Shown piece after piece: positions 5,747 through 17,360 of a stretch of DNA of 64,000 nt. Within the stretch, counting starts at the first letter, position 1; each line of letters starts with the position of its first letter. This DNA comes from Cupriavidus respiraculi. GTDB taxonomy: Bacteria > Pseudomonadota > Gammaproteobacteria > Burkholderiales > Burkholderiaceae. Under the pieces are notes generated by a model that was not told the DNA's origin, made no database searches, and saw only the letters and a list, made by a program, of their open reading frames with translations. Position numbers and translations under genes: made by a program. The stretch lies in the NCBI RefSeq assembly GCF_914271545.1, contig NZ_CAJZAH010000003.1, positions 558,001-622,000 of the forward strand, given 5' to 3'.

Positions 5747-5907
5747 GTCCCGGCGTGCCGCGATGGTGCGCTCCGCCGCAACGGCATCCCCCGCCAGTGC
5801 GCGCGTCCAGGGACCAAAGTCCAACGCCAATCCGTTTGCCTCGTCCGCGCGGAGCTACCAAACTGTAGCGATACAGCATCTTCGTTCCGACCTTCGCGGG
5901 GGCCGCC

Positions 5908-6792
5908 ATGAGCAAATCGAAGCGACGCAAGTCATCGGAAGAGGCGACGGCCGGAGCGGGCGCGACGCTTGATCGCAATGGCGATGCCGGCCGCCATGCC
6001 GGCGCCGGCGTGGCGAGGCCGCGCATGTCCGGCAAGGAATATGAGGAGGCATTGCGCAAGCTGCATGTGGAACTGGTGACGCTGCAGGAATGGGTCGTCA
6101 GGACCGGCGCCAAGATCTGCATCGTGTTCGAAGGGCGCGACGGCGCGGGAAAGGGCGGCACCATCAAGGCGCTGACCGAACGGGTCAGTCCGCGCGTGTT
6201 CCGTGTCGTGGCGCTGCCCGCGCCTACCGACCGCGAGAAAAGCCAGATGTATTTCCAGCGTTACCTGCCGCACCTGCCGGCGGCGGGCGAAGTCGTCATC
6301 TTCGACCGCAGCTGGTACAACCGGGCCGGCGTGGAGCGCGTCATGGGCTTCTGTTCGGAGGAAGACGCGGCACGCTTCCTGGAGGCGGTGCCGCTGGTGG
6401 AGCGCGCCATCGTCTCGTCCGGGATCGTGCTGATCAAGTACTGGCTGGAGGTCAGCCAGGAGGAGCAGACGAAACGGCTCGAGGCGCGCATCCATGACGG
6501 TCGCAAGCTGTGGAAGCTGACCGGGATGGACCTGAAGTCGTACAGCCGCTGGTACGACTATTCGCGCGCGCGCGACGACATGTTCGAGGCCACCGACACG
6601 CCGGACACGCCCTGGCATGTCGCCGATTCGAACGACAAGCGGCGTGCCCGCCTGAACATCATCAGCGACCTGCTGGGCCGAATCCCCTACGAAAAACTGC
6701 CGCGCAAGACGCCGGAGCTGCCGGCCCGCCAGAAGCGAGGGGACTATCGCGAGCCGGACCACCCGTTCCGCTATATCGCGCAGCGGTATTGA
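5908..6792 (+). CDS. ppk2: Polyphosphate kinase 2
   Basis: The 294-residue enzyme belongs to the PPK2 family, which transfers phosphate between inorganic polyphosphate and nucleoside (di)phosphates. The Walker A motif GRDGAGKGG is at residues 76-84 and the Walker B/lid segment IFDRSWYNRAGVERVMGF at about 129-147, both hallmarks of single-domain PPK2. The C-terminal part contains the conserved DMFEATDTPDTPWHVADSNDKRRARLN stretch (quoted in part as TPWHVADSNDK). The first 40 residues are a variable basic/Ala-rich tail. It stands alone between the rpoD terminator and a convergent small membrane gene. Substrate preference (ADP, AMP or GDP) cannot be read from the sequence. Confidence 0.93.
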   Translation: MSKSKRRKSSEEATAGAGATLDRNGDAGRHAGAGVARPRMSGKEYEEALRKLHVELVTLQEWVVRTGAKICIVFEGRDGAGKGGTIKALTERVSPRVFRVVALPAPTDREKSQMYFQRYLPHLPAAGEVVIFDRSWYNRAGVERVMGFCSEEDAARFLEAVPLVERAIVSSGIVLIKYWLEVSQEEQTKRLEARIHDGRKLWKLTGMDLKSYSRWYDYSRARDDMFEATDTPDTPWHVADSNDKRRARLNIISDLLGRIPYEKLPRKTPELPARQKRGDYREPDHPFRYIAQRY

Positions 6793-6799
6793 GCGCGCA

Positions 6800-7081
6800 C
6801 TACGTCCCGAGGCGGCGCGAGCTGCGGTAGTGCGCGATGCCGACCAGCACGGCGCCGGCCAGGAACACCAGCAGGCAGCCCCACAGCCATTGGTGGGCCA
6901 CGATGTTGATCCAGTAGCCGGTGGGGCTGTCGGCGCGGATCAACTGCACCTGCAAACCGTACAGCGCGAAGTTGATCAGGTGATGCGGCTCGGGAATATT
7001 GCCGACGGGATCGGAGAACAGCAGGCCGAGCGCCGCCAGCCAGAAGGCTGCGATCATCAGTCGGATGCCGGCTTTGCGCAT
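6800..7081 (-). CDS. Small two-helix membrane protein, unknown function
   Basis: The 93-residue product has two hydrophobic segments, about residues 5-22 (IRLMIAAFWLAALGLLF) and 62-81 (WLWGCLLVFLAGAVLVGIA), separated by a polar loop, and a short basic tail. The start at 7081 is favoured over an in-frame ATG ten codons upstream because GGGAG lies 5 nt before it. It is convergent with ppk2, with 7 bp between the two stops. I do not recognise a family; function is unknown. Confidence 0.65.
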   Translation of the reverse strand: MRKAGIRLMIAAFWLAALGLLFSDPVGNIPEPHHLINFALYGLQVQLIRADSPTGYWINIVAHQWLWGCLLVFLAGAVLVGIAHYRSSRRLGT

Positions 7082-7150
7082 GGTCGCTCCCAAGCCGCGT
7101 GCGTGCCGCACTTGCCTCGATCATTGGGCGCGGCCGTGGCCCGCGCAATT

Positions 7151-7162
7151 GGACCAAGGTCC
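7151..7162. promoter_or_regulatory. GGACC-AA-GGTCC palindrome, site 1
   Basis: GGACCAAGGTCC is a 12-bp palindrome (5-bp arms, 2-bp centre) 131 bp upstream of the DUF3300 gene. The wider 18-bp CAATTGGACCAAGGTCCC (7146-7163) recurs exactly, inverted, at 11437-11454. See the sites at 10966 and 11438. It is most likely an operator. Confidence 0.65.
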
Positions 7163-7293
7163 CATCCGCCGCCACGCGCCCCCGCGCGGAACCGCGCCCA
7201 AAGGCCAATACCAAACGCGGCCGGCGAATCCACAATGAACTGGCCTGCGGCAAACGCGGCATTGCAGCCGGTTCGGCGGAAATGGAGGCGGCC

Positions 7294-8757
7294 ATGGCCC
7301 GATGGCTCGAACGCCTGATGTCCTGCGTGCGCATGCTCGCGGCGGCGGGATGTCTGGCCATGCCAGCCGTGCCGGGGGCCCAGACTTCGGCGCCGGCGGC
7401 GGCGCCCACGTTCCGGCCCGAGGAGATCGAGGCGCTGGTGGCGCCGATCGCACTGTATCCGGACACGGTGCTGTCGCAGGTGCTGATGGCCTCCACCTAC
7501 CCGCTGGAGATCGTCTACGCCGCGCGCTGGCTCAAGGCCAATCCCAACACGAAGGGCGAAGCGGCGGTCAAGGCGGTGGAGAACCAGCCGTGGGACGTCA
7601 GCGTGAAGTCGCTGGTGGCGTTCCCCCAGGTGCTCGAACCGATGAGCGACAAGCTGGACTGGACCCAGAAGCTCGGCGACGCCTTCCTCGCGCAGGAGAA
7701 GGACGTGCTGGCCGCGGTACAACGCCTGCGCGCGCGGGCGCGTGACGCCGGCAACCTGCAATCGAACGAACAGCAAAAGGTATCGGTGAAGGCGACGCCG
7801 CCTGCGCAGGGCACGTCCGGGCCGCCCCCGCCGCCGCAGACCATCGTGATCGAGTCCGCGAATCCGCAGGTCATCTACGTGCCCGCCTACAACCCGACGG
7901 TGGTCTATGGCGCCTGGGGTTATCCCAGTTATCCACCGTACTACTGGCCGCCGTATCCGGCCTACTATCCCGGCGCCGCGCTGGCGACAGGGCTGGCATG
8001 GGGCATCGGGTTCGCGGCCGCGGGCGCCATCTTCGGCGACTGCAACTGGGGCGGCGGCGATGTGAATATCGATATCGACCGGGCGACCAATATCGACCGC
8101 AGCTTCGATCGCACCAAGGTGCAGGGCGGCAACAAGTGGCAGCACGATGCGAAGCACAGGCAGGGGGTGGCCTATCGGGACAATGCCTCGCGAGAGCGCT
8201 TTTCCAGCAACGTGGGCGGCGCGGACCGGCGCAGCGACTATCGCGGGCGCGAGGGCGGTGGCGAGCGGGCTGGCGTATCGGATCGCGCCGCGGACCGCGA
8301 GGGCCGGGCAGATCGCGCGGGAGGGGACAGGCAGGCCGGCGACCGCCAGGCCGGGACGCGCCAGGTGTCGGACCGGCAGGCGGGAGACCGGCAGGCGCCA
8401 GACCGGCAGGTCGGCGATCGCCAGAGCGGCGGCAGGGAGGGCCTGGGCGATGGCGCCGGCCGCACGGCCGCCGCGGGCGACCGCTCGCACGGCGGCGGCC
8501 GGGACAACGCGTTCCAGGGCGTGGGCAGCGGCCAGAGCGCCCAGCGCGACATCGACCGCGGCCGCGCCAGCACGCAGTCGGCGAGCCTGCACAGCGGCGG
8601 CCGCGGCGGCGGCGACTTCGGTGGCGGCGGCGGGCGCTCCGGCGGCGGCTTCAGCGGCGGTGGCGGGCATGGAGGCGGCTTCAGTGCCGGCGGCCGGGGC
8701 GGCGGCGGCGGTTTCGGCGGTGGCCGGGGCGGCGGTCGCGGCGGCGGCAGGCGTTGA
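7294..8757 (+). CDS. DUF3300 domain-containing exported protein
   Basis: The 487-residue protein begins with a signal-peptide-like segment (MLAAAGCLAMPAVPGAQ) and then a DUF3300 domain of about 250 residues, recognised by IEALVAPIALYPDTVLSQVL, SLVAFPQVLEPMSDKLDW and the Pro/Tyr-rich YVPAYNPTVVYG. Its second half is low complexity: Arg/Asp/Gln repeats (units like DRQAG) around 8320-8430 and a Gly/Arg tail. Start 7294 is chosen because GGAGG is ideally spaced upstream; ATG 7282 and longer extensions are possible. DUF3300 has no known enzymatic role. It pairs with the DUF2950 gene 12 bp downstream and has a GGACC-WW-GGTCC site upstream. Envelope location is inferred. Confidence 0.85.
   Translation: MARWLERLMSCVRMLAAAGCLAMPAVPGAQTSAPAAAPTFRPEEIEALVAPIALYPDTVLSQVLMASTYPLEIVYAARWLKANPNTKGEAAVKAVENQPWDVSVKSLVAFPQVLEPMSDKLDWTQKLGDAFLAQEKDVLAAVQRLRARARDAGNLQSNEQQKVSVKATPPAQGTSGPPPPPQTIVIESANPQVIYVPAYNPTVVYGAWGYPSYPPYYWPPYPAYYPGAALATGLAWGIGFAAAGAIFGDCNWGGGDVNIDIDRATNIDRSFDRTKVQGGNKWQHDAKHRQGVAYRDNASRERFSSNVGGADRRSDYRGREGGGERAGVSDRAADREGRADRAGGDRQAGDRQAGTRQVSDRQAGDRQAPDRQVGDRQSGGREGLGDGAGRTAAAGDRSHGGGRDNAFQGVGSGQSAQRDIDRGRASTQSASLHSGGRGGGDFGGGGGRSGGGFSGGGGHGGGFSAGGRGGGGGFGGGRGGGRGGGRR
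8320..8430 (+). repeat. Degenerate DRQ(A/V)G codon repeats in the DUF3300 gene
   Basis: About eight copies of a 12-15-bp unit of the gaccggcaggcg type encode GDRQAG/TRQVS/DRQAP/DRQVG peptides. They form a hydrophilic, charged, probably disordered linker before the Gly-rich tail. Confidence 0.7.
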
Positions 8758-8769
8758 CAAGGAGGCAGC

Positions 8770-9666
8770 ATGACGTCGCGATCGTTCGGGGCGAAGCCCA
8801 TGACCGCAGCCATGGCGCTGGCCGTATCGGCCGGAGCCTGGGCGGCCGCCGCGCAGGAACACTTTGCCTCGCCGCAGGCCGCCATGCAGGCATTTGGCGA
8901 CGCGGTGGCGACGAGCGACGAGGACGCGCTGCGCGCGATTCTCGGCAGCGATTACCGCCGCCTGATCCCGCCGGTCGGCGCCGAGGCGCGCTATCGCTTT
9001 CTCGGCGCCTGGAGCGAGGCGCGCACGGTGCGGCCCGATGGCGACAGCCGGGCCTATATCGCGGTGGGCCACGATGGCTGGACGCTGCCGATTCCGCTGG
9101 CGAAGTCGGCGCAGGGCTGGACGTTCGACGTGCCGGAGGGAGTGCGCGAGATGCGGCTGCGCCGTATCGGCCGCAACGAGCTGGCGGTGATGCAGACCAT
9201 GCTGGCGATCTACGACGCGCAGCGCGAATACGCGAGCGTGGACCGCGACGGCGACGGCGTACTGGCCTACGCCGGCAGGCTGTCCAGCGCGCCGGGCAAG
9301 CGCGACGGCCTGTACTGGCCGACGCGCGGCGACGAGCCTGAAAGCCCGCTCGGCCCGGCGTTTCTCGCGGCGGGCCGCGGCAATGCCACGCAGCAGGGCT
9401 ACCACGGTTACCACTATAAGCTGCTGACCGCGCAGGGCCCGCACGCGCCGGGCGGGGAGTACGACTACGTCGTCCGCGGCCAGCTGTTCGGCGGCTTTGC
9501 CGTCGTGGCTTGGCCTGCGCGGTACGGCGACTCCGGTGTGAAAAGTTTTTTGATCAGCCATGAAGGCCAGCTGTATGAGGCCGACCTTGGCCCGCAGAGC
9601 GCGGCGCGCGCTGCCGCGATGCGCCGTTTCGATCCCGGCCCGGGCTGGAGCCGCATCACGCCGTGA
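8770..9666 (+). CDS. DUF2950 domain-containing exported protein
   Basis: The 298-residue protein has a signal sequence (MALAVSAGAWAAAAQEHF, mature end after about residue 28) and then a DUF2950 domain, recognised by FASPQAAMQAFGDAVATSDE, PLGPAFLAAG, the YHGYHYKLLTAQGPHAPGG block and FAVVAWPARYGDSGVKSFLI. The family has no assigned biochemical function. It follows the DUF3300 gene by 12 bp with GGAGG in the spacer, so the two are co-transcribed; this DUF3300-DUF2950 pairing is common in proteobacteria. Export to the periplasm is inferred from the leader. Confidence 0.87.
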   Translation: MTSRSFGAKPMTAAMALAVSAGAWAAAAQEHFASPQAAMQAFGDAVATSDEDALRAILGSDYRRLIPPVGAEARYRFLGAWSEARTVRPDGDSRAYIAVGHDGWTLPIPLAKSAQGWTFDVPEGVREMRLRRIGRNELAVMQTMLAIYDAQREYASVDRDGDGVLAYAGRLSSAPGKRDGLYWPTRGDEPESPLGPAFLAAGRGNATQQGYHGYHYKLLTAQGPHAPGGEYDYVVRGQLFGGFAVVAWPARYGDSGVKSFLISHEGQLYEADLGPQSAARAAAMRRFDPGPGWSRITP

Positions 9667-9966
9667 GGCCGGCGGCCGGGCGCGATGCGGCGAAGTTTGC
9701 ATTTGTGCGCTGCGCCCACTACTGTGAACAGCGAACATCGCCGGATATCGACGGTGGCGGAATGGCGCGGCCCTCGTCGTGGCGTTGCTTCGCCGCTGCG
9801 CGACGCAACGCGCGGGATACCCGGCATCATCCCAGGGGGAATGCCATGTTTCGTCGCTCACTGACGTCCGTGCCGGCTGCACCCGCGTCGGGCGCCCCCG
9901 CGCCCGGCTGTACCGCCATCTTCCGCTGCGCTGGATCGTCTCTGGCCGCGTAGCGCGAGACCCGCG
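9667..9966. other. Intergenic stretch between DUF2950 gene and histidine kinase
   Basis: No convincing gene lies here. A 35-codon reading frame (9846-9953) has an AGGGGGA sequence 5 nt before its ATG and ends 13 nt before the kinase start. Its Pro/Ala composition gives no family signal, so it is noted only as a possible leader peptide. Confidence 0.4.
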
Positions 9967-10908
9967 ATGGGGCGCTCCCTGTCGTCTCGCATCGTACTGG
10001 GCGCATGCTGCCTGCTCGGTGCCATCTCGGTCCTGACCGCGGGACGCGCGCTGCTCCGCGCCGGCGATGATGCCCCGCGCAGCGGCCTGCGCCGCCGTCC
10101 GCCTGCGCATCCGCAGGGCAATGACGACTATGCCTCGCTGAGCCGCGTCTCGCGGCTCTCCAGCATGGCGGAGCTGGCCGGCTCGCTTGCCCACGAACTC
10201 AACCAGCCGCTCACCGCCATCGTCAGCAATGCCCAGGCCGCCCGCCGGTACCTGGAGGCCGATGTCCTGGACATGGACGAGCTGCGCGAGATCGTCAAGG
10301 ACGTTTCCGACGAAGCGTGCCGCGCCAGCGCCACGGTGCGCCAGATTCGCGCGCTGATCAACGGCGAGTCGCCGGCGCTGGCACCGCTGGATGTCGTGGC
10401 GGTGATCGACGACGTGCTGTCGCTGGTGCGCGGTAACGCGCTGGGGCGAGGCATCGCGCTTGCGCGCGAGGTGACGGCGCCGCTGCCGCGCGTCAATGGC
10501 GATGCGGTGCAGCTCCAGCAATTGCTCCTGAACGTGCTACTCAACGCCTTCGACGCCGTGGACAGCAGCGGCCTGGCGGCGGGGACGCCCCGCGAGGTCA
10601 AGGTGCGGGCCGACGCCCACGGCGGCATGGTGCGCATTTCGGTGCGCGATACCGGTAAGGGCGTGGCGCCCGGCGACCTGGAGACCATCTTCGAGCCCTT
10701 CGTCACGTCCAGGCCGCAGGGCATGGGCCTCGGGCTCTCCATCAGCCGCTCCATCGCGGCCCGCCATGGGGGCACGCTGCAGGCGCGGAAAAACGCAGAC
10801 CGCGGCATGACGTTTGTGTTTTCGCTGCCTGAGGAAGGCATGCCCGCCCGGCGCGCCACGCCTGGGCCTCTGGACAGGCTGCTCACGCAGCGGTCGCTGC
10901 ACGGCTGA
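9967..10908 (+). CDS. Sensor-less histidine kinase (HisKA/HATPase_c)
   Basis: The 313-residue protein has one hydrophobic helix at residues 8-26 (RIVLGACCLLGAISVLTAG), a short linker, and then a complete kinase core. The H-box is SLAHELNQPL with H76, typical of the DctB/FixL-like class. The ATPase domain shows the N-box (LLLNVLLNAFDAV), the G1 box DTGKGVAP and the G2 box GMGLGLSISRSIA. No PAS, HAMP or periplasmic sensor domain fits in the 60 residues before the H-box. The likely partner is the receiver-only regulator at 11060, after a 151-bp gap. What it senses cannot be inferred. Confidence 0.87.
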   Translation: MGRSLSSRIVLGACCLLGAISVLTAGRALLRAGDDAPRSGLRRRPPAHPQGNDDYASLSRVSRLSSMAELAGSLAHELNQPLTAIVSNAQAARRYLEADVLDMDELREIVKDVSDEACRASATVRQIRALINGESPALAPLDVVAVIDDVLSLVRGNALGRGIALAREVTAPLPRVNGDAVQLQQLLLNVLLNAFDAVDSSGLAAGTPREVKVRADAHGGMVRISVRDTGKGVAPGDLETIFEPFVTSRPQGMGLGLSISRSIAARHGGTLQARKNADRGMTFVFSLPEEGMPARRATPGPLDRLLTQRSLHG

Positions 10909-10965
10909 GGCGCCACTGCAACGCGGCGATCGCACGACGCCGCGCATCCTTTGCCGCTCCCTCAG

Positions 10966-10977
10966 GGACCATGGTCC
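10966..10977. promoter_or_regulatory. GGACC-AT-GGTCC palindrome, site 2
   Basis: GGACCATGGTCC lies 83 bp upstream of the response-regulator gene, in the 151-bp gap after the kinase gene. It shares both 5-bp arms and the spacing of the sites at 7151 and 11438, differing only in the central AT. Confidence 0.6.
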
Positions 10978-11059
10978 ACTACCGGCGGCCGGTGCCAACT
11001 CATAGCCTTCGGTCATACCGGGCGCCGGCCCGGGTTGCCGTTACTGCCATCGTCCACCT

Positions 11060-11431
11060 ATGGGTTCTGCAACGACCTTTGTCGTCATCGTCGATGACGA
11101 CGATGCCGTCGCCCGCGCGATCGCAAGGCTCCTGCGCGCCGCGGGGGTCCGCGTGGACGCGTATGCCAACGGCCGCGCGCTGCTGGAGCGCCTCGGGGAA
11201 GATCCCGGTTACCGTCCCGATTGCGTGATCCTGGATGTGTGCATGCCCGGAATCGACGGCCTCGAGATGCAGCGTCGGCTGGCGCCGACCCGACTGCCCG
11301 TGCTGTTCGCCACGGCGTACGACGTGCCGGAGGCGCGCGAACGGGCGCTGGCCAACGGAGCGATCGGCTACATGCGCAAGCCCTTCAACGCCGCGCAACT
11401 GCTGGCACTGATTCCCGGCGTGCGCTGCTGA
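11060..11431 (+). CDS. Single-domain response regulator (receiver only)
   Basis: The 123-residue protein is one receiver domain of the FixJ/NarL-like type. The acidic pocket is VDDDD (residues 11-15), the phospho-acceptor is D59 in VILDVCMPG, the conserved Thr lies in LFATAYD, and the invariant Lys in YMRKPF. There is no helix-turn-helix output domain: the frame stops at PGVRC, 7 bp before a GGACC-WW-GGTCC palindrome. It must act through a protein partner or as a phosphate sink. No Shine-Dalgarno sequence precedes the ATG. Partnership with the kinase at 9967 is inferred from position. Confidence 0.85.
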   Translation: MGSATTFVVIVDDDDAVARAIARLLRAAGVRVDAYANGRALLERLGEDPGYRPDCVILDVCMPGIDGLEMQRRLAPTRLPVLFATAYDVPEARERALANGAIGYMRKPFNAAQLLALIPGVRC

Positions 11432-11437
11432 GGGGAG

Positions 11438-11449
11438 GGACCTTGGTCC
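11438..11449. promoter_or_regulatory. GGACC-TT-GGTCC palindrome, site 3
   Basis: GGACCTTGGTCC lies 103 bp upstream of the RND efflux operon. The flanked form GGGACCTTGGTCCAATTG (11437-11454) is the exact reverse complement of the 18 bp at site 1, beyond what the palindrome itself requires. Confidence 0.65.
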
Positions 11450-11551
11450 AATTGCCGCCGCTTGCAAGGAGGCCCAAGCTAGCTTCGTAAGCATCCGCGG
11501 CATGGCGGGCCCACGGGGGCGCCGGCGTATGCGCGCGTGGGAGATACCGAG

Positions 11552-12742
11552 ATGCGCAGCAGGAACAGCCGGCGATGGATGGCAATGCTCGCGGCCGTTG
11601 CGTTGGCCGCCGGATGTCAGAAGGAGGAGCGCAAGGCCGCGGCGCCGCCGGTGACGGACGTCGGCGTAATGACGGTGGCGCTGCGCGATGTGCCGCTGAA
11701 CTTCGAGTTCGTGGGCGAGACCCAGAGTTCGCAGCAGGTAGAGATCCGCGCGCGGGTCAGCGGCTTCCTGGAGGAGCGGGTCTACACCGAGGGCTCGCTG
11801 GTCAAGGCCGGCGACGTGCTGTTCCGCATGGACCGCAAGCCGTTCGCCGCGGCGCTGAGCGCCGCGCAGGCGGAACTGGCGATGCAGCAGGCCCGCCTGA
11901 CCACGGCGAACGCGAACCTTGCGCGGGTGCGGCCGCTGGCCGCCAGGAACGCGTTGAGCCAGAAGGATCTGGACGAGTCCATCGGCCAGCAGCAGGCCGC
12001 CGCGGCGGCTGTCGAGGCGGCCAAGGCCAACGTCGTCAGCGCCAGGTTGAACCTGGGCTATACCACCATCGTGTCACCGGTGAACGGCCTGTCGAGCTTC
12101 GCCAAGAAGCAGGTCGGCAGCTATATCGACAGCACCGACAGCCTGCTGACCTACGTGGCCAAGCTCGACCCCATGTGGGTCAACTTCAGCCTTTCGGAGA
12201 ACGAGGTGCTGCAGACGCGCGCGCAGCAGCAGTCGGGCGCGCTGCGCCTGCCCGAGCGCGGTGCGCTGGAAGTGGAAGTCGTGCTCGCCGACGGCAGCGT
12301 CTATCCCAGCCGGGGCCGCATCGCGTTCGCCGATGCGGCGTTCAGCGCGGAGACCGGGACCTATCTGGTTCGCGCCGAGGTGCAGAACCGCGAGGGGGTG
12401 CTGCGGCCGGGACAGTTCGTGCGGGTGAGGGTCATCGGGGCACAGCGCACGCGCGCCATCACCGTGCCGCAGGAAGCGGTGATGCAGGGGCAGCGGGGGG
12501 AATCGGTCTGGATCGTCGACAAGGAAGGCAAGGCGCAGCAGCGCGTCGTGGAGGTGGCCGAATGGACCGAGGGCAACTGGGTGGTCCGCTCGGGCCTGCG
12601 TGAGGGCGATGTGGTCATCGTGGACGGGGCGATGCGGCTGGCGCCCGGGGCGCCGGTGCGGCCGGTGCATGCCGGCGCCGAGGGCGCGCCCAAGCCGCAG
12701 AGCGCGGCGGCACCCACGCCGGGTACGAAGGCGGCGCCATGA
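11552..12742 (+). CDS. RND efflux periplasmic adaptor subunit (membrane fusion protein)
   Basis: The 396-residue lipoprotein links the inner-membrane RND pump to the outer-membrane channel. The signal ends in the lipobox LAAGC, with lipidated Cys at about residue 20. The family core follows: VEIRARVSGFLEERVYTEGSLVKAGD (lipoyl half, quoted in part as VRARVSG-type motif), a coiled-coil hairpin rich in Ala/Gln, LNLGYTTIVSPVNG and a beta-barrel domain. It is most like MexE/AcrA-type adaptors. ATG 11552 is preceded by GGAG at 9 nt. The stop overlaps the permease start by 4 bp (ATGA), indicating translational coupling. Substrate is unknown. Confidence 0.93.
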   Translation: MRSRNSRRWMAMLAAVALAAGCQKEERKAAAPPVTDVGVMTVALRDVPLNFEFVGETQSSQQVEIRARVSGFLEERVYTEGSLVKAGDVLFRMDRKPFAAALSAAQAELAMQQARLTTANANLARVRPLAARNALSQKDLDESIGQQQAAAAAVEAAKANVVSARLNLGYTTIVSPVNGLSSFAKKQVGSYIDSTDSLLTYVAKLDPMWVNFSLSENEVLQTRAQQQSGALRLPERGALEVEVVLADGSVYPSRGRIAFADAAFSAETGTYLVRAEVQNREGVLRPGQFVRVRVIGAQRTRAITVPQEAVMQGQRGESVWIVDKEGKAQQRVVEVAEWTEGNWVVRSGLREGDVVIVDGAMRLAPGAPVRPVHAGAEGAPKPQSAAAPTPGTKAAP

Positions 12743-15700
12743 AACTGTCGCACTTCTTCATCGACCGGCCGATCTTTGCATCGGTCCTGTCCATCATCAT
12801 CGTGGTGGGCGGGCTGGTGGCGATGTTCAACCTGCCGGTGGCGCAGTTTCCCGACATCACGCCGCCGAGCATCACGGTCTCCACCACCTACCCCGGCGCG
12901 AACTCCGAGGTGGTGGCGCAGAACGTGGCCGCGCCCATCGAGCAGCAGGTCAATGGCGCGGACAACATGCTCTACATGTCCTCGACCAGTTCTTCCACGG
13001 GGAACATGACGCTGACGGTGTACTTCGAGATCGGCACCGATCCGTCGCTGGCGCAGGTCGACGTGCAGAACCGCGTCAACCTCGCGCTGCCCACGCTGCC
13101 CGATGCGGTCACCCGCCAGGGCGTGTCGGTGCAGAAGCGGTCGTCGGCCTTCATGATGGTGATCGCGGTCTATTCGCCCGACAACAGCTTCGACAAGACC
13201 TTCGTCGACAACTACACCAACATCTACATTCTCGATGCGCTCAAGCGCATCCCCGGCGCGAACCAGGCATCGATCTTCGGCACGCCCGACTATGCGATGC
13301 GCATCTGGCTGTTGCCGGACCGCATGGCGCGGCTGGGCATCACCGTGGAAGACGTGAAGAACGCCGTGTCCTCGCAGAACGAGCAGTTCTCCGCGGGGCG
13401 CATCGGCCAGTCGCCCACCGACGGCCCGGTCAAGCAGACGTTTCCGGTTGCCACCAAGGGGCGCATGACCGAGCCGGCGGAGTTCGAGAACATCATCCTG
13501 CGAGCCGCCTCGGGCGACGCGGCCATCGTGCGCCTGAAGGATATCGGCCGCGCGGAACTGGGCTCCAAGGACTATTCGCTGCGCAGCCGTTTCAACGGCA
13601 AGACCGCCACGCTGCTGGCCGTGTACCAGCAGCCGGGCGCCAACGCGCTGGACGTGGCGCAGCAGGTGCGCACCACGCTGGAGACGATGAAGAAGACGTT
13701 TCCGCCGGGCCTGGAGTACGAGATCGCGCTGGACACCACCGACTTCGTCCGCGAATCGATCAACGAGGTCGTGCACACGCTGCGCGACGCGGTGATCCTC
13801 GTCATCCTGGTGGTCTATCTGTTCCTGCAGAGTTTCCGCGCCACGCTCGTGCCGATACTGGCCGTGCCGGTGTCCATCATCGGCACGTTCATGGCGATGT
13901 CGGCGTTCGGCTTCTCGGTCAACATGCTGACGCTGTTCGGCATGGTGCTGGCCATCGGCATCGTGGTGGACGACGCCATCGTGGTGATCGAGAACGTCGA
14001 GCGCAACATGGTCGAGTTCAAGATGCCGCCGAAGGAAGCCGCCAAGCACGCGATGGACGAAGTGGGCGGGCCGGTGATCGCCATCGTGCTGGTGCTGCTC
14101 GCGGTGTTCATTCCGGTGGCGTTCCTGTCCGGCATCACGGGCCAGTTGTACAAGCAGTTCGCCATCACGCTGGCGGTGTCGGTGTTCCTCTCCGGCGTGG
14201 TCGCGCTGACGCTGTCGCCCGCGTTGGCCGCCGTGCTGCTCAAGCCGGGGAGCCACGAGAAGAACCGCTTCTTCCGCTGGTTCAACGAGAAGTTCGACCG
14301 GATGGTGGAAGGGTACGGGCGGTCGGTGCAACTGGTCATCCGGCGGGTGGCGATTTCGGCGGCGCTGGTGCTCGCGCTGATCGTGGCCGCCGTGCTGCTG
14401 TTCATGCGCATCCCCTCGTCGTTCCTGCCGGTGGAAGACCAGGGCTATCTGCTGGGCGCCGTCATCATGCCGGATGCGGCAAGCCTGGACCGCACCGGCG
14501 AAGTATCCAGGCGCGCCGAGCAGTGGTTCAAGGCGCAGCCCGCGGTGCGCTCGGTGGCCACGCCAGACGGCTACAGCCTGATCGACTCGCAGAACAAGTC
14601 CAATGCCGGCACGTTGTTCGTCGCGCTGAAGGGCTTCCACGAGCGCGGCGACGGCGAGAGCGCCGAGGACCTGATCGTCAAGGCCACGCGCGAATTCTCG
14701 ACGTGGCGCGATGGGCTGGTGATCCCGGTCAACCCGCCGGCGATTCCCGGGCTGGGCACCACCGGAGGGTTCGAGTTCTGGCTGCAGAGCACCGGCGACG
14801 GCACCTACCAGCAGCTGGAGGAGCGTGTGCGCGCGTTCATTGCCAAGGCGCGCGCGCGGCCCGAACTGCGCAGCGTCAGCACCACCATCAATACGCGCTC
14901 GCGCCAGCTGCTGGTCGACCTGGACCGCGAACGCGCGGAAACGCAGGGCGTGCCGGTGGACCAGGTCTACTCGGCGCTGCAGACGATGTTCGGCTCGCTG
15001 TACGTCAGCCAGTTCCCCAAGAACAGCCGCCTGTTCCAGGTCATCCTGCAGGCCGAGCCGCAGTACCGTTCCCGGCCCGAGGACCTGGACAAGGTCTATG
15101 TGCGCAACGCCAGCGGCGACATGGTGCCGATCAAGGCGGTGACCACCTCGCGCTACGTGGCGGGGGCGGATCTGGTGACGCGCTTCAACAACTTCCCGGC
15201 GGCCAAGATCACCGGCGACGCGGCGACGGGCTACAGCTCCGGGCAGGCGCTGGCCGCGATGGAGGAGGTCGCCGCCGAGGTGCTCGGCGAGGGCTACAGC
15301 TTTGCCTGGAGCGGGCAGGCTTACGAGGAGAAGAAGGCCGGCTCGACGGCGGCGATGGTGTTCGGCTTCGCGCTGCTGATGGTGTTCCTGATCCTGGCCG
15401 CGCAGTACGAGAAGTGGACTCTGCCGATCGGTGTGCTGCTGGCGGTGCCGTTCGCGCTGTTCGGCGCGCTGGTGGCCATCCTGGTGCGCGGCATGGAGAA
15501 CGACGTGTATTTCCAGATCGGCCTCACCGTGCTGATCGCGCTGGCCGCGAAGAACGCGATCCTGATCTTCGAGTTCGCGGTGGAGATGCGCATCAAGGAA
15601 GGGCTGAGCGCCTATGACGCGGCGGTCAAGGCGTCCAAGCTGCGCCTGCGGCCGATCATCATGACGTCGCTGGCTTTTATCCTCGGCTGCATTCCGCTGG

Positions 15701-15915
15701 CCATCGCCAGTGGCGCGTCGGCGGCGAGCCGGCAATCGCTGGGCACCGGCGTGATCGGCGGCATGCTGGGCGCCACGGTGATCGCGGTGTTCTTTATCCC
15801 GATGTTCTTCTGGCTGCTGGAGCGGCGCACCGCCGGCAAGGTGCCGGCCAAGCCGGCGAAGGGGCCCGGCGAAGCGGTGCCGGATGCCGCGAACCCGCAT
15901 GGAGCGGCGGAATGA
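12739..15915 (+). CDS. RND efflux permease, HAE1 family (AcrB/MexF-like)
   Basis: The 1058-residue inner-membrane pump has the usual RND architecture. TM1 is at the N-terminus (FFIDRPIFASVLSIIIVVGG), followed by a large periplasmic domain, a TM2-TM6 bundle near residues 340-560 containing the proton-relay aspartates in GIVVDDAIVVIENVERNM, a second periplasmic domain, and the C-terminal TM bundle. Length and the hydrophobic-amphiphilic efflux (HAE1) signatures (FPDITPPSITV, SFLPVEDQGYLL) fit multidrug exporters rather than metal exporters. It overlaps both neighbours by 4 bp. Substrates cannot be predicted from sequence. Confidence 0.95.
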   Translation: MKLSHFFIDRPIFASVLSIIIVVGGLVAMFNLPVAQFPDITPPSITVSTTYPGANSEVVAQNVAAPIEQQVNGADNMLYMSSTSSSTGNMTLTVYFEIGTDPSLAQVDVQNRVNLALPTLPDAVTRQGVSVQKRSSAFMMVIAVYSPDNSFDKTFVDNYTNIYILDALKRIPGANQASIFGTPDYAMRIWLLPDRMARLGITVEDVKNAVSSQNEQFSAGRIGQSPTDGPVKQTFPVATKGRMTEPAEFENIILRAASGDAAIVRLKDIGRAELGSKDYSLRSRFNGKTATLLAVYQQPGANALDVAQQVRTTLETMKKTFPPGLEYEIALDTTDFVRESINEVVHTLRDAVILVILVVYLFLQSFRATLVPILAVPVSIIGTFMAMSAFGFSVNMLTLFGMVLAIGIVVDDAIVVIENVERNMVEFKMPPKEAAKHAMDEVGGPVIAIVLVLLAVFIPVAFLSGITGQLYKQFAITLAVSVFLSGVVALTLSPALAAVLLKPGSHEKNRFFRWFNEKFDRMVEGYGRSVQLVIRRVAISAALVLALIVAAVLLFMRIPSSFLPVEDQGYLLGAVIMPDAASLDRTGEVSRRAEQWFKAQPAVRSVATPDGYSLIDSQNKSNAGTLFVALKGFHERGDGESAEDLIVKATREFSTWRDGLVIPVNPPAIPGLGTTGGFEFWLQSTGDGTYQQLEERVRAFIAKARARPELRSVSTTINTRSRQLLVDLDRERAETQGVPVDQVYSALQTMFGSLYVSQFPKNSRLFQVILQAEPQYRSRPEDLDKVYVRNASGDMVPIKAVTTSRYVAGADLVTRFNNFPAAKITGDAATGYSSGQALAAMEEVAAEVLGEGYSFAWSGQAYEEKKAGSTAAMVFGFALLMVFLILAAQYEKWTLPIGVLLAVPFALFGALVAILVRGMENDVYFQIGLTVLIALAAKNAILIFEFAVEMRIKEGLSAYDAAVKASKLRLRPIIMTSLAFILGCIPLAIASGASAASRQSLGTGVIGGMLGATVIAVFFIPMFFWLLERRTAGKVPAKPAKGPGEAVPDAANPHGAAE

Positions 15916-17360
15916 ACCGCGTGCGCCAGCGGCACGGGACCGCCACGCTGGTGCCGGCGCTGCTCGCCGCGGCGCTCGCCGGCTGCGCCGTAGGCCCGGA
16001 CTACGAGCGGCCTGCGGTGGACGTGCCGGCAGCCTATCGCTTCGCGCAGCCCGGCGAGGTGGCGCCCATGGCCATCGAACCGCGCTGGTGGGGGCAGTTC
16101 CACGACCCGGTGCTCGATGCGCTGATCGTGCAGGCACTGGAGCGCAACCGCGACATCCTGATCGCCGTGGCGCGCGTGGAGGAGTACTACGGCCGCGTGA
16201 TGTCCACCCGGGGCCTGCTGTTCCCGCAGGTCGGGGTGGAGGCGCTGGCCGGCCGCCAGCGCATCGGCGAGGGCGGCGCCGCGGTGCTGCCGGGCAACAA
16301 CCCGTTCAACCAGGTGCAGGCCGACGTCTTCGCCTCCTGGGAGATCGATCTGTTCGGCCGGCTGCGCCGCCTGACCGAATCGGCGCGGGCGCAGTGGGCC
16401 GCCTCGGACGAGGCGCGCCGGGCGGTGGAGATCAGCGTGGTGGCGGCGGTGGCGTCGGCGTATATCACGCTGCGCGACCTGGACAACCGGCGCCTGGTGG
16501 CCATCGATACGCTGAGCACGCGCGAGGGTGCGCTAAAGCTGTTCCGCGACCGCTTCGAGGGCGGGGTGGTGGGGGAAGTGGAGGTGGCCCAGGCGCAGTC
16601 CGAGTACTCGTCGGCGCAAGGCACCGTCGCGCTCTACGAGCTGCTGGTGGCGCAGCAGGAGAACCTGCTGTCGGTCCTGGTCGGCGACAACCCGCGGGAT
16701 ATGCCGCGGGGGCTGGCGATCGGCGAGCTGGCCTCTCCGGTCATTCCCGCCGGTCTGCCGTCCGAGCTGCTGGCGCAGCGGCCGGATCTGCTCCAGGCGG
16801 AGCAGCAACTGATCGCCGCCAACGCCGAGATCGGCGCGGCCCGCGCGCAGTATTTCCCCACCATCACACTCACCGGCCTCTTCGGCGCGGCCAGCACGGC
16901 GCTGTCCGGCCTGTGGGGCGGCGCGGCGAAGACGTGGTCGTATGGCGCCTCGGTGGCCATGCCCATCTTTACCGCCGGGCGCATCGCGGGCGATGTGAGG
17001 CAGGCCGAGGCGCGGCAGCGGCAGGCGCTGCAGGCGTACCAGCAGGCCATCCAGACCGCGTTCCGCGAGGTGGCCGATGCGCTGGTGGGCGTGCAGCGCA
17101 CGCGCGACCAGCTCGCGGCCAAGAACGCGCAGGTGGACGCGCTGGTGCGCTACGTCGCACTGGCGCAGGACCGGTATGAGGGCGGCTACACCAGCTACCT
17201 GGAAGTGCTCGATGCCGAGCGCTCGCTGTTCGCGGCGCAGCTCGACCAATCCAACCTGCGCGGCACCGAGTTCGGGCAGATCGTGCAGCTTTACAAGGCG
17301 CTCGGGGCGGGATGGCCGATGCGGCAGGACCCCACGATGTTGACGACGACGGAGAGATGA
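15912..17360 (+). CDS. RND efflux outer-membrane channel lipoprotein (NodT/OprM family)
   Basis: The 482-residue protein is the outer-membrane channel of the tripartite pump. It has a lipoprotein signal with lipobox ALAGC (Cys at about residue 25) followed by the family motif AVGPDYERPAV. Two OEP repeats follow, each with long Ala/Gln-rich helices, and the second ends in YVALAQDRYEGGYTSYLEVLDAERSL (quoted in part). The start codon overlaps the permease stop (ATGA). Being the third gene of the operon, it makes the pump self-contained. Confidence 0.93.
   Translation: MNRVRQRHGTATLVPALLAAALAGCAVGPDYERPAVDVPAAYRFAQPGEVAPMAIEPRWWGQFHDPVLDALIVQALERNRDILIAVARVEEYYGRVMSTRGLLFPQVGVEALAGRQRIGEGGAAVLPGNNPFNQVQADVFASWEIDLFGRLRRLTESARAQWAASDEARRAVEISVVAAVASAYITLRDLDNRRLVAIDTLSTREGALKLFRDRFEGGVVGEVEVAQAQSEYSSAQGTVALYELLVAQQENLLSVLVGDNPRDMPRGLAIGELASPVIPAGLPSELLAQRPDLLQAEQQLIAANAEIGAARAQYFPTITLTGLFGAASTALSGLWGGAAKTWSYGASVAMPIFTAGRIAGDVRQAEARQRQALQAYQQAIQTAFREVADALVGVQRTRDQLAAKNAQVDALVRYVALAQDRYEGGYTSYLEVLDAERSLFAAQLDQSNLRGTEFGQIVQLYKALGAGWPMRQDPTMLTTTER

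Follow-up and report, generated by a model that had tools for sequence, protein, structure and literature searches.

Genes and palindromes of the locus

The window analysed here is a 64,000-nt stretch of the Cupriavidus respiraculi genome (positions 558,001 to 622,000 of contig NZ_CAJZAH010000003.1), in which the 12-bp palindrome GGACCWWGGTCC stands in the intergenic regions before a DUF3300/DUF2950 gene pair, a receiver-only response regulator gene and an RND efflux operon. The source genome (G000) comprises 5,594,073 bases in 18 contigs, one of which, C1, is referred to below; coordinates without a prefix are those of the window. From left to right, the locus encodes a PPK2 polyphosphate kinase (5908..6792, plus strand; PF03976), a small membrane protein without a Pfam match (orf6800; 6800..7081, minus strand), the divergently transcribed DUF3300 protein (7282..8757, plus strand; PF11737), a DUF2950 protein (8770..9666, plus strand; PF11453), a histidine kinase with HisKA and HATPase domains (9967..10908, plus strand; PF00512 and PF02518), the response regulator (11060..11431, plus strand; PF00072 only) and an RND operon for membrane fusion protein, pump and outer-membrane factor (11537..17360, plus strand; PF16576, PF00873 and PF02321), followed by a CusF-like protein whose match lies below its Pfam cut-off. 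The longest DUF3300 open reading frame (ORF), 7099-8757, would overrun the first palindrome, and we place the start near 7282, before a signal-peptide-like stretch. Pfam finds no sensor domain, PAS included, in the kinase.

The three palindromes lie between orf6800 and the DUF3300 gene (7151-7162), between the kinase and receiver genes (10966-10977), and between the receiver gene and the RND operon (11438-11449). The 5.59-Mb genome has no further copy, and the three lie within 4.3 kb, each in the intergenic position given by a sequence-only reading of the window; its chance expectation of roughly 0.02 sites is reproduced by dinucleotide shuffling (mean 0.02; at least three copies in none of 100 shuffles). 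The first and third sites share an identical core in opposite orientation, which extends over 19 bp (GCAATTGGACCAAGGTCCC) rather than the 18 bp given in that reading. A one-mismatch site that it did not include, GGACCAAAGTCC, lies at 5811, before the PPK2 gene. As a bare string the 12-mer is not enriched genome-wide: its reversed sequence, used as control, occurs five times in the source genome and is the commoner of the two in 53 of 60 Cupriavidus genomes (counted by eye). Copy number of the 12-mer is thus uninformative, and the information lies in clustering, position and conservation.

An extended 18-bp motif is conserved before orthologous genes

By-eye comparison of sites across the genus extends the palindrome to 18 bp, approximately ATTGGACC-WW-GGTCCMAT. 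Predicted operator O1 (ATTGGACCAAGGTCCCAT, 7148..7165), between orf6800 on the minus strand and DUF3300 on the plus strand, matches this 18-mer without mismatch. O2 (CAGGGACCATGGTCCACT, 10963..10980), 79 bp before the receiver-only gene, and O3 (GAGGGACCTTGGTCCAAT, 11435..11452), between that gene and the RND operon, keep the exact core with three and two mismatches, respectively, on the better strand. The site 82 bp before PPK2 (CAGGGACCAAAGTCCAAC, 5808..5825; one mismatch in the core) is possibly a fourth, decayed operator, O4. With up to three mismatches allowed, the window holds five strand matches at three places against 0.02 expected. The same threshold applied to the whole source genome recovers the three window sites together with C1:649527, C1:656898, C1:657859 and C1:1140030, the last of which (three mismatches) was dropped as an operator, being inside a called ORF. 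Since the six forward and six reverse matches stand against three and two for the reversed pattern, the weakest of these sites are not significant by number.

In relatives the extended motif separates clearly from its control. According to per-genome counts, the 18-mer is present in 28 of 60 genomes of the genus at up to two mismatches (reversed pattern, 4 of 60) and in 29 of 299 genomes of the family, representing 7 of 25 genera, at up to one mismatch (reversed pattern, a single match). We also examined 80 named loci (948,102 bp; numbered with the prefix L, as genomes are with G) that hold 80 relatives of the receiver-only gene, chosen from 267 by peptide patterns, mostly from Cupriavidus, Paraburkholderia, Caballeronia and Burkholderia but also from Ralstonia, Trinickia, Pararobbsia, Crenobacter, Bordetella and Achromobacter. 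At up to three mismatches these loci contain 174 sites, against two for the reversed pattern, and 75 of the 80 have at least one. The sequence-only reading had named random scatter inside genes as evidence against an operator; among 106 distinct extended sites (up to two mismatches, or three with an exact core) in the window and a partial set of genus loci, 87 fall outside ORF calls and 19 inside, by a crude caller that over-extends starts. Coincidence in GC-rich DNA could be entertained for the bare 12-mer, given the frequency of its reversed form and the 9 of 37 exact-core sites that fall inside ORF calls, but three copies in 4.3 kb, the 174-to-2 excess at orthologous positions and the fixed offset to a -10 element described below leave it next to no probability. 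The 12-mer alone proved a poor probe: the context ACATGTACGGACCTTGGTCCAGATCGTT is common to five of its copies (in L006, L008, L040, L044 and L071), which represent a single conserved sequence, apparently unconnected with the regulon.

The sites occupy regular places. In 64 of the 80 named loci the receiver gene is directly preceded by a kinase gene and a FixJ-type regulator gene, with the latter in between. Measured start to start, 51 loci have a site 84-155 bp ahead of the receiver gene; 67 have one 19-165 bp beyond the receiver match, and 47 have both. In the window, O2 (10963) and O3 (11435) stand in these two positions. A flanking site accompanies 63 of the 64 loci with an adjacent FixJ-type gene (L250 has none) and 8 of the 16 loci without one. 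Sites within 330 bp upstream of other genes were counted as distinct promoters in loci L129-L168, L217-L296 and 12 others, which overlap in genomes. Relatives of PPK2 have 22 such promoters from 27 loci, DUF3300 relatives 15 from 26, and orf6800 relatives 10 from 15. Conserved sites thus precede DUF3300, PPK2 and the small membrane protein as well as the receiver-only gene and the RND operon, which answers the second test proposed from the sequence alone, conservation upstream of orthologous operons.

Other genes beside sites in the genus, typed by Pfam on one representative each, encode aminotransferase-class, patatin-DUF3734, Ysc84, carbonic anhydrase, YdjM, NapD, ion channel and glycine-zipper proteins; several have no Pfam match, and some of these neighbours may be there by chance. 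Palindromes of this type adjoin napD in three Cupriavidus genomes (L131 (G017:C4), L140 and L160) and, if real, would tie the regulon to periplasmic nitrate reduction. In L153, L128 and L148, a gene that weakly matches ABM monooxygenase is preceded at 43 bp by a related palindrome, ATTGGACCATAGTCCAAT or that sequence with one base changed. Two of these three genomes lack a regulator of the clade defined below, and the palindrome is perhaps the operator of a relative of the regulator.

The sites are held at a fixed distance from a -10-like hexamer

Sequence profiles around the two conserved sites flanking the receiver gene reveal a conserved TAG.CT downstream of the first. After removal of duplicates and of sites near locus ends, which reduced the 174 sites to 166, 134 have, on one flank or the other, a -10-like YA...T hexamer whose first base stands exactly 31.5 bp from the centre of the site. 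Across 72 offsets (peak included in the mean), TA...T is counted 91 times at +31.5 against a mean of 2.4, and YA...T 147 times against a mean of 7.0. Three hexamers in the window follow this spacing: TAGCCT (11003..11008, plus strand) before the receiver gene, with its first base at +31.5 from the O2 centre; CAAGCT (11475..11480, plus strand) before the RND operon, at +31.5 from the O3 centre; and AATGAT (7120..7125, minus strand) before orf6800, at the same offset leftward of O1, which fits.A...T with A where most have Y. By eye, CACCCT lies at +31.5 from C1:649527 before a phosphotransacetylase gene (PF01515), and TAGACT lies one base nearer than standard to C1:656898 before a glycine-zipper gene. 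Judged by a transcription start placed from the -10-like element, the site would be centred near -42/-43, where an activator standing in for the -35 box is expected. Fixed spacing to the -10 box and a centre near -42 are the marks of a class II activator-dependent promoter, to which we assign these sites on that predicted start.

The same geometry bears on whether the palindromes are instead RNA or DNA hairpins, such as terminators or REP-like repeats. Such use of the sequence does occur: a genus copy of the 12-mer in L052 lies within a long inverted repeat that ends in T residues, and C1:657859 is likewise part of a longer inverted repeat. No T run follows the window copies, however, which are only three in the genome, and the copies in relatives are succeeded by a -10-like hexamer at one exact offset; we regard hairpins as a very unlikely account of the set. 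The L052 element itself (L052:4040-4067, AAAAGCCAGGACCTTGGTCCTGGCTTTT) has all but its central two bases paired and resembles a terminator-like use of the 12-mer. At C1:657859 (L088:9350-9385), upstream of the FixJ-type gene on C1, the repeat reads GTCCGTATTGG...CCAATACGGAC, and this site may form a hairpin, whether or not it also serves as an operator.

A FixJ-type regulator encoded on contig C1 is the candidate binder

The regulator gene that relatives carry between kinase and receiver is missing from the window. When the window is aligned by blastn to the C. campinensis locus L219, the kinase and receiver regions align, and the 196 bases in the window correspond to 949 in L219 that include its FixJ-type gene, so the gene is absent here. 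The sequence-only reading had pointed out that the nearby response regulator lacks a DNA-binding domain, as Pfam bears out, and that the recognising protein is probably encoded elsewhere, a view that fits what we find on C1. The protein specified by the middle gene of the relatives' cluster combines a receiver with a GerE helix-turn-helix, and its best match in the source genome is C1:656982-657602 (244.5 bits, 57% identity; runner-up, 150.8 bits); the next six matches have 40-47% identity. The corresponding gene (C1:656964-657602, minus strand) encodes a receiver (PF00072, 7e-23) and a GerE helix-turn-helix (PF00196, 1e-19), the domain make-up of the FixJ/NarL (LuxR-type) family. Its nearest solved chains are FixJ (5xso) and 1yio, the closest full-length one (E 4e-41), which we take to be StyR. 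The StyR/TodT box, whose letters were not found in the papers searched, shares the core ACCATGGT with O2 and differs in the outer half-sites.

A FastTree phylogeny of 91 FixJ-type proteins, restricted to matches covering query residues 25 to 190, resolves a clade of 75 members with support 0.926. The recognition helix E[KQ]T[IV][KR].HR.[RHSK]VM is shared by 73 of the proteins, all of them in the clade, which also takes in 2 of the 18 that lack it. One of the nine source-genome proteins in the tree falls in this clade, namely the C1 regulator. Three of the weaker sites (C1:649527, C1:656898 and C1:657859) lie within 7.5 kb of its gene, which adjoins the gene for the glycine-zipper protein. A tblastn search of the 16.5 kb surrounding the regulator gene (L088), with the window kinase as query, detects no kinase.

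Motif and regulator co-occur across genomes. Among 60 genomes of the genus the 18-mer is found in 23 of 23 with the regulator and in 5 of 37 without (Fisher 4e-12, kinship ignored); in 259 family genomes outside the genus, it is found in 16 of 38 with the regulator and in 1 of 221 without (Fisher 2.8e-14, kinship ignored). The genus rows of the family survey give 11 of 15 and 1 of 25. The genome lists for these tests were assembled by hand from per-genome results, and the cut for calling a genome regulator-positive was set after the score gap had been seen (199.8 versus 167.9 bits in the genus; 5.3e-81 versus 1.3e-71 in the family). Helix and site also vary together in the named loci: helix AAEKTIKIHRARVM pairs with sites such as ATGAGACCAAGGTCCGAT, and helix VAEKTIKVHRARVM with ATTGGACCAAGGTCCAAT, a pairing that fits co-evolution and for which shared descent could also account. 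The source-genome regulator has helix TVEKTIKAHRARVM, and relatives with this helix frequently have sites with one degenerate outer half (TCGGG, CCGGG), a feature of O2 and O3 too.

It is improbable, in our estimate, that the sites belong to another factor, either a FixJ-type paralogue or a protein of a different family, with the C1 regulator a mere passenger of the gene set. Eight further FixJ-type proteins of the source genome are in the tree, a few genomes have a site and no clade member, and ATTGGACCATAGTCCAAT precedes the gene with the weak ABM match, which lies below the Pfam cut-off, in G059 and G020, both without a clade member. Against this, the motif co-occurs with this one clade in two genome sets and flanks the receiver gene almost without exception where the FixJ-type gene is in place (63 of 64), the remaining source-genome proteins in the tree lack the clade's recognition helix, and NarL sites share the layout of inverted repeats separated by 2 bp (PMC4549865, the portion available).

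A conserved receiver-only protein may feed back on the kinase

The protein of 11060-11431 is a single-domain response regulator with an intact receiver and no output domain, and the PDB contains a 136-residue receiver chain, 5tqj, that matches it (E 2.5e-35). It is not a broken regulator: all 80 relatives are receiver-only proteins of 114-134 aa, and they keep the phosphorylation residues (D59 in 80 of 80; T85 in 79, with one S; K107 in 78, with two R; D12 and D13 in all 78 covered). The relatives were chosen by peptide patterns that contain C55, so the invariance of C55 among them is partly ascertainment. Kinases scanned by Pfam contain PAS in all four from other genera and in neither of the two from Cupriavidus, and we therefore do not claim FixLJ membership for the system described here.

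The proposed circuit would run as follows. The kinase of 9967-10908 would phosphorylate the FixJ-type protein, a dimer of which would bind each 18-bp site; viewed as two inverted heptamers around a 2-bp spacer (TTGGACC-WW-GGTCCAA), the site has a 7-2-7 symmetry that fits such a dimer. From a position near -42/-43, where a -35 box would otherwise lie, the dimer would recruit RNA polymerase to the -10 element at fixed spacing. Through O2, FixJ~P is predicted to activate the receiver-only gene, through O3 the RND operon, and through O1 orf6800 and perhaps DUF3300/DUF2950; the glycine-zipper and phosphotransacetylase genes on C1 would be further targets. With the regulator's site and a -10 element in front of its gene, the receiver-only protein would be a target too, and the simplest role to suggest for it is negative feedback on the kinase, modelled on the action of FixT on FixL. 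Alternatively, it may serve as a sink for the kinase's phosphate.

Comparison with known systems

The nearest parallel is FixL-FixJ-FixT of Caulobacter crescentus, which, in the portion of PMC7078487 available, likewise comprises a sensor kinase, a FixJ-type regulator and a single-domain receiver gene within the FixJ regulon. It differs in that the window kinase and the two scanned Cupriavidus kinases lack PAS by Pfam, that fixK and heme genes give way to RND, PPK2 and DUF3300 genes as predicted targets, and that the window receiver, read by eye, lacks a four-cysteine motif. TodS/TodT also has a FixJ-type regulator and, unlike the system here, serves aromatic catabolism operons. The same holds for StyS/StyR, whose regulator has a high-affinity site at about -40 according to the portion of PMC2442086 available, similar to the position predicted here. 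NarL, for its part, activates napF and yeaR from 7-2-7 sites at -40 to -49 and -38 to -47 (PMC4549865, same portion); the inverted heptamers and 2-bp spacer are alike, whereas the heptamer itself and the nitrate regulon are different.

Within the same family, Burkholderia dolosa has a FixL/FixJ-type pair activated at low oxygen, for which the target reported in the accessible text of PMC5234846 and PMC8406202 is, unlike here, fixK; BCAL2210/2211 are its homologues (PMC6127331, accessible text). The words 'efflux' and 'binding site' are absent from the main text of PMC5234846, and 'palindrom', 'efflux' and 'RND' from the accessible text of PMC8406202. Among the papers listed in the literature searched, where those bearing the motif were judged by title, no description of this regulon was found, nor does the accessible part of PMC2864759 give one. 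The regulator is of the FixJ/NarL kind and apparently undescribed in that literature.

Discussion

We consider it highly probable that the palindromes serve a single FixJ/NarL-type response regulator, encoded in trans, as operators and that the C1 protein is its likely representative here, a prediction that draws on site conservation, promoter spacing and co-occurrence in genome sequences. Several observations weigh against it. The outer halves of O2 and O3 are degenerate. At the standard offset, no -10 element leads from O1 towards DUF3300, and none lies on either side of the 5808 site. The -10 rule was derived and counted on overlapping loci, and the co-occurrence statistics are uncorrected for phylogeny. 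Six regulator-negative genomes have a site (five in the genus, at one place each, and G268 in the family set), and no site at up to one mismatch is found in 22 of the 38 regulator-positive genomes outside the genus or in 4 of the 15 genus rows, misses that may reflect variant sites. The CusF-like gene has sites before only 3 distinct promoters from 25 loci. Finally, the C1 regulator is 59% identical to its C. campinensis counterpart, compared with 80% for the receiver-only regulator, 94% for RND, 67% for the kinase and 64% for DUF3300. The contrast with the receiver-only and RND proteins means that a recent simple relocation is not shown; the gene may have moved, or an older copy may have taken over.

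On a broader proposal we are evenly divided: a conserved, Burkholderiaceae-centred stress regulon, in which one FixJ-type activator drives RND efflux, PPK2, DUF3300/DUF2950 and its own receiver-only antagonist through a single rigid promoter architecture. In C. respiraculi the activator gene would have departed from the cluster, with kinase, antagonist and operators remaining in place, and so the circuit would run in trans. The 'envelope-response' label suggested from the sequence alone is plausible in that many of the proteins are envelope proteins, but the set also includes PPK2 and phosphotransacetylase.

For genes with little literature, such as those of DUF3300 and DUF2950, the analysis supplies a predicted operator and a candidate regulator, together with a list of genes. 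The locus would be a natural case of a two-component regulator gene set apart from its likely kinase with the operators persisting, and the conserved receiver-only protein may be a feedback element built into the system.

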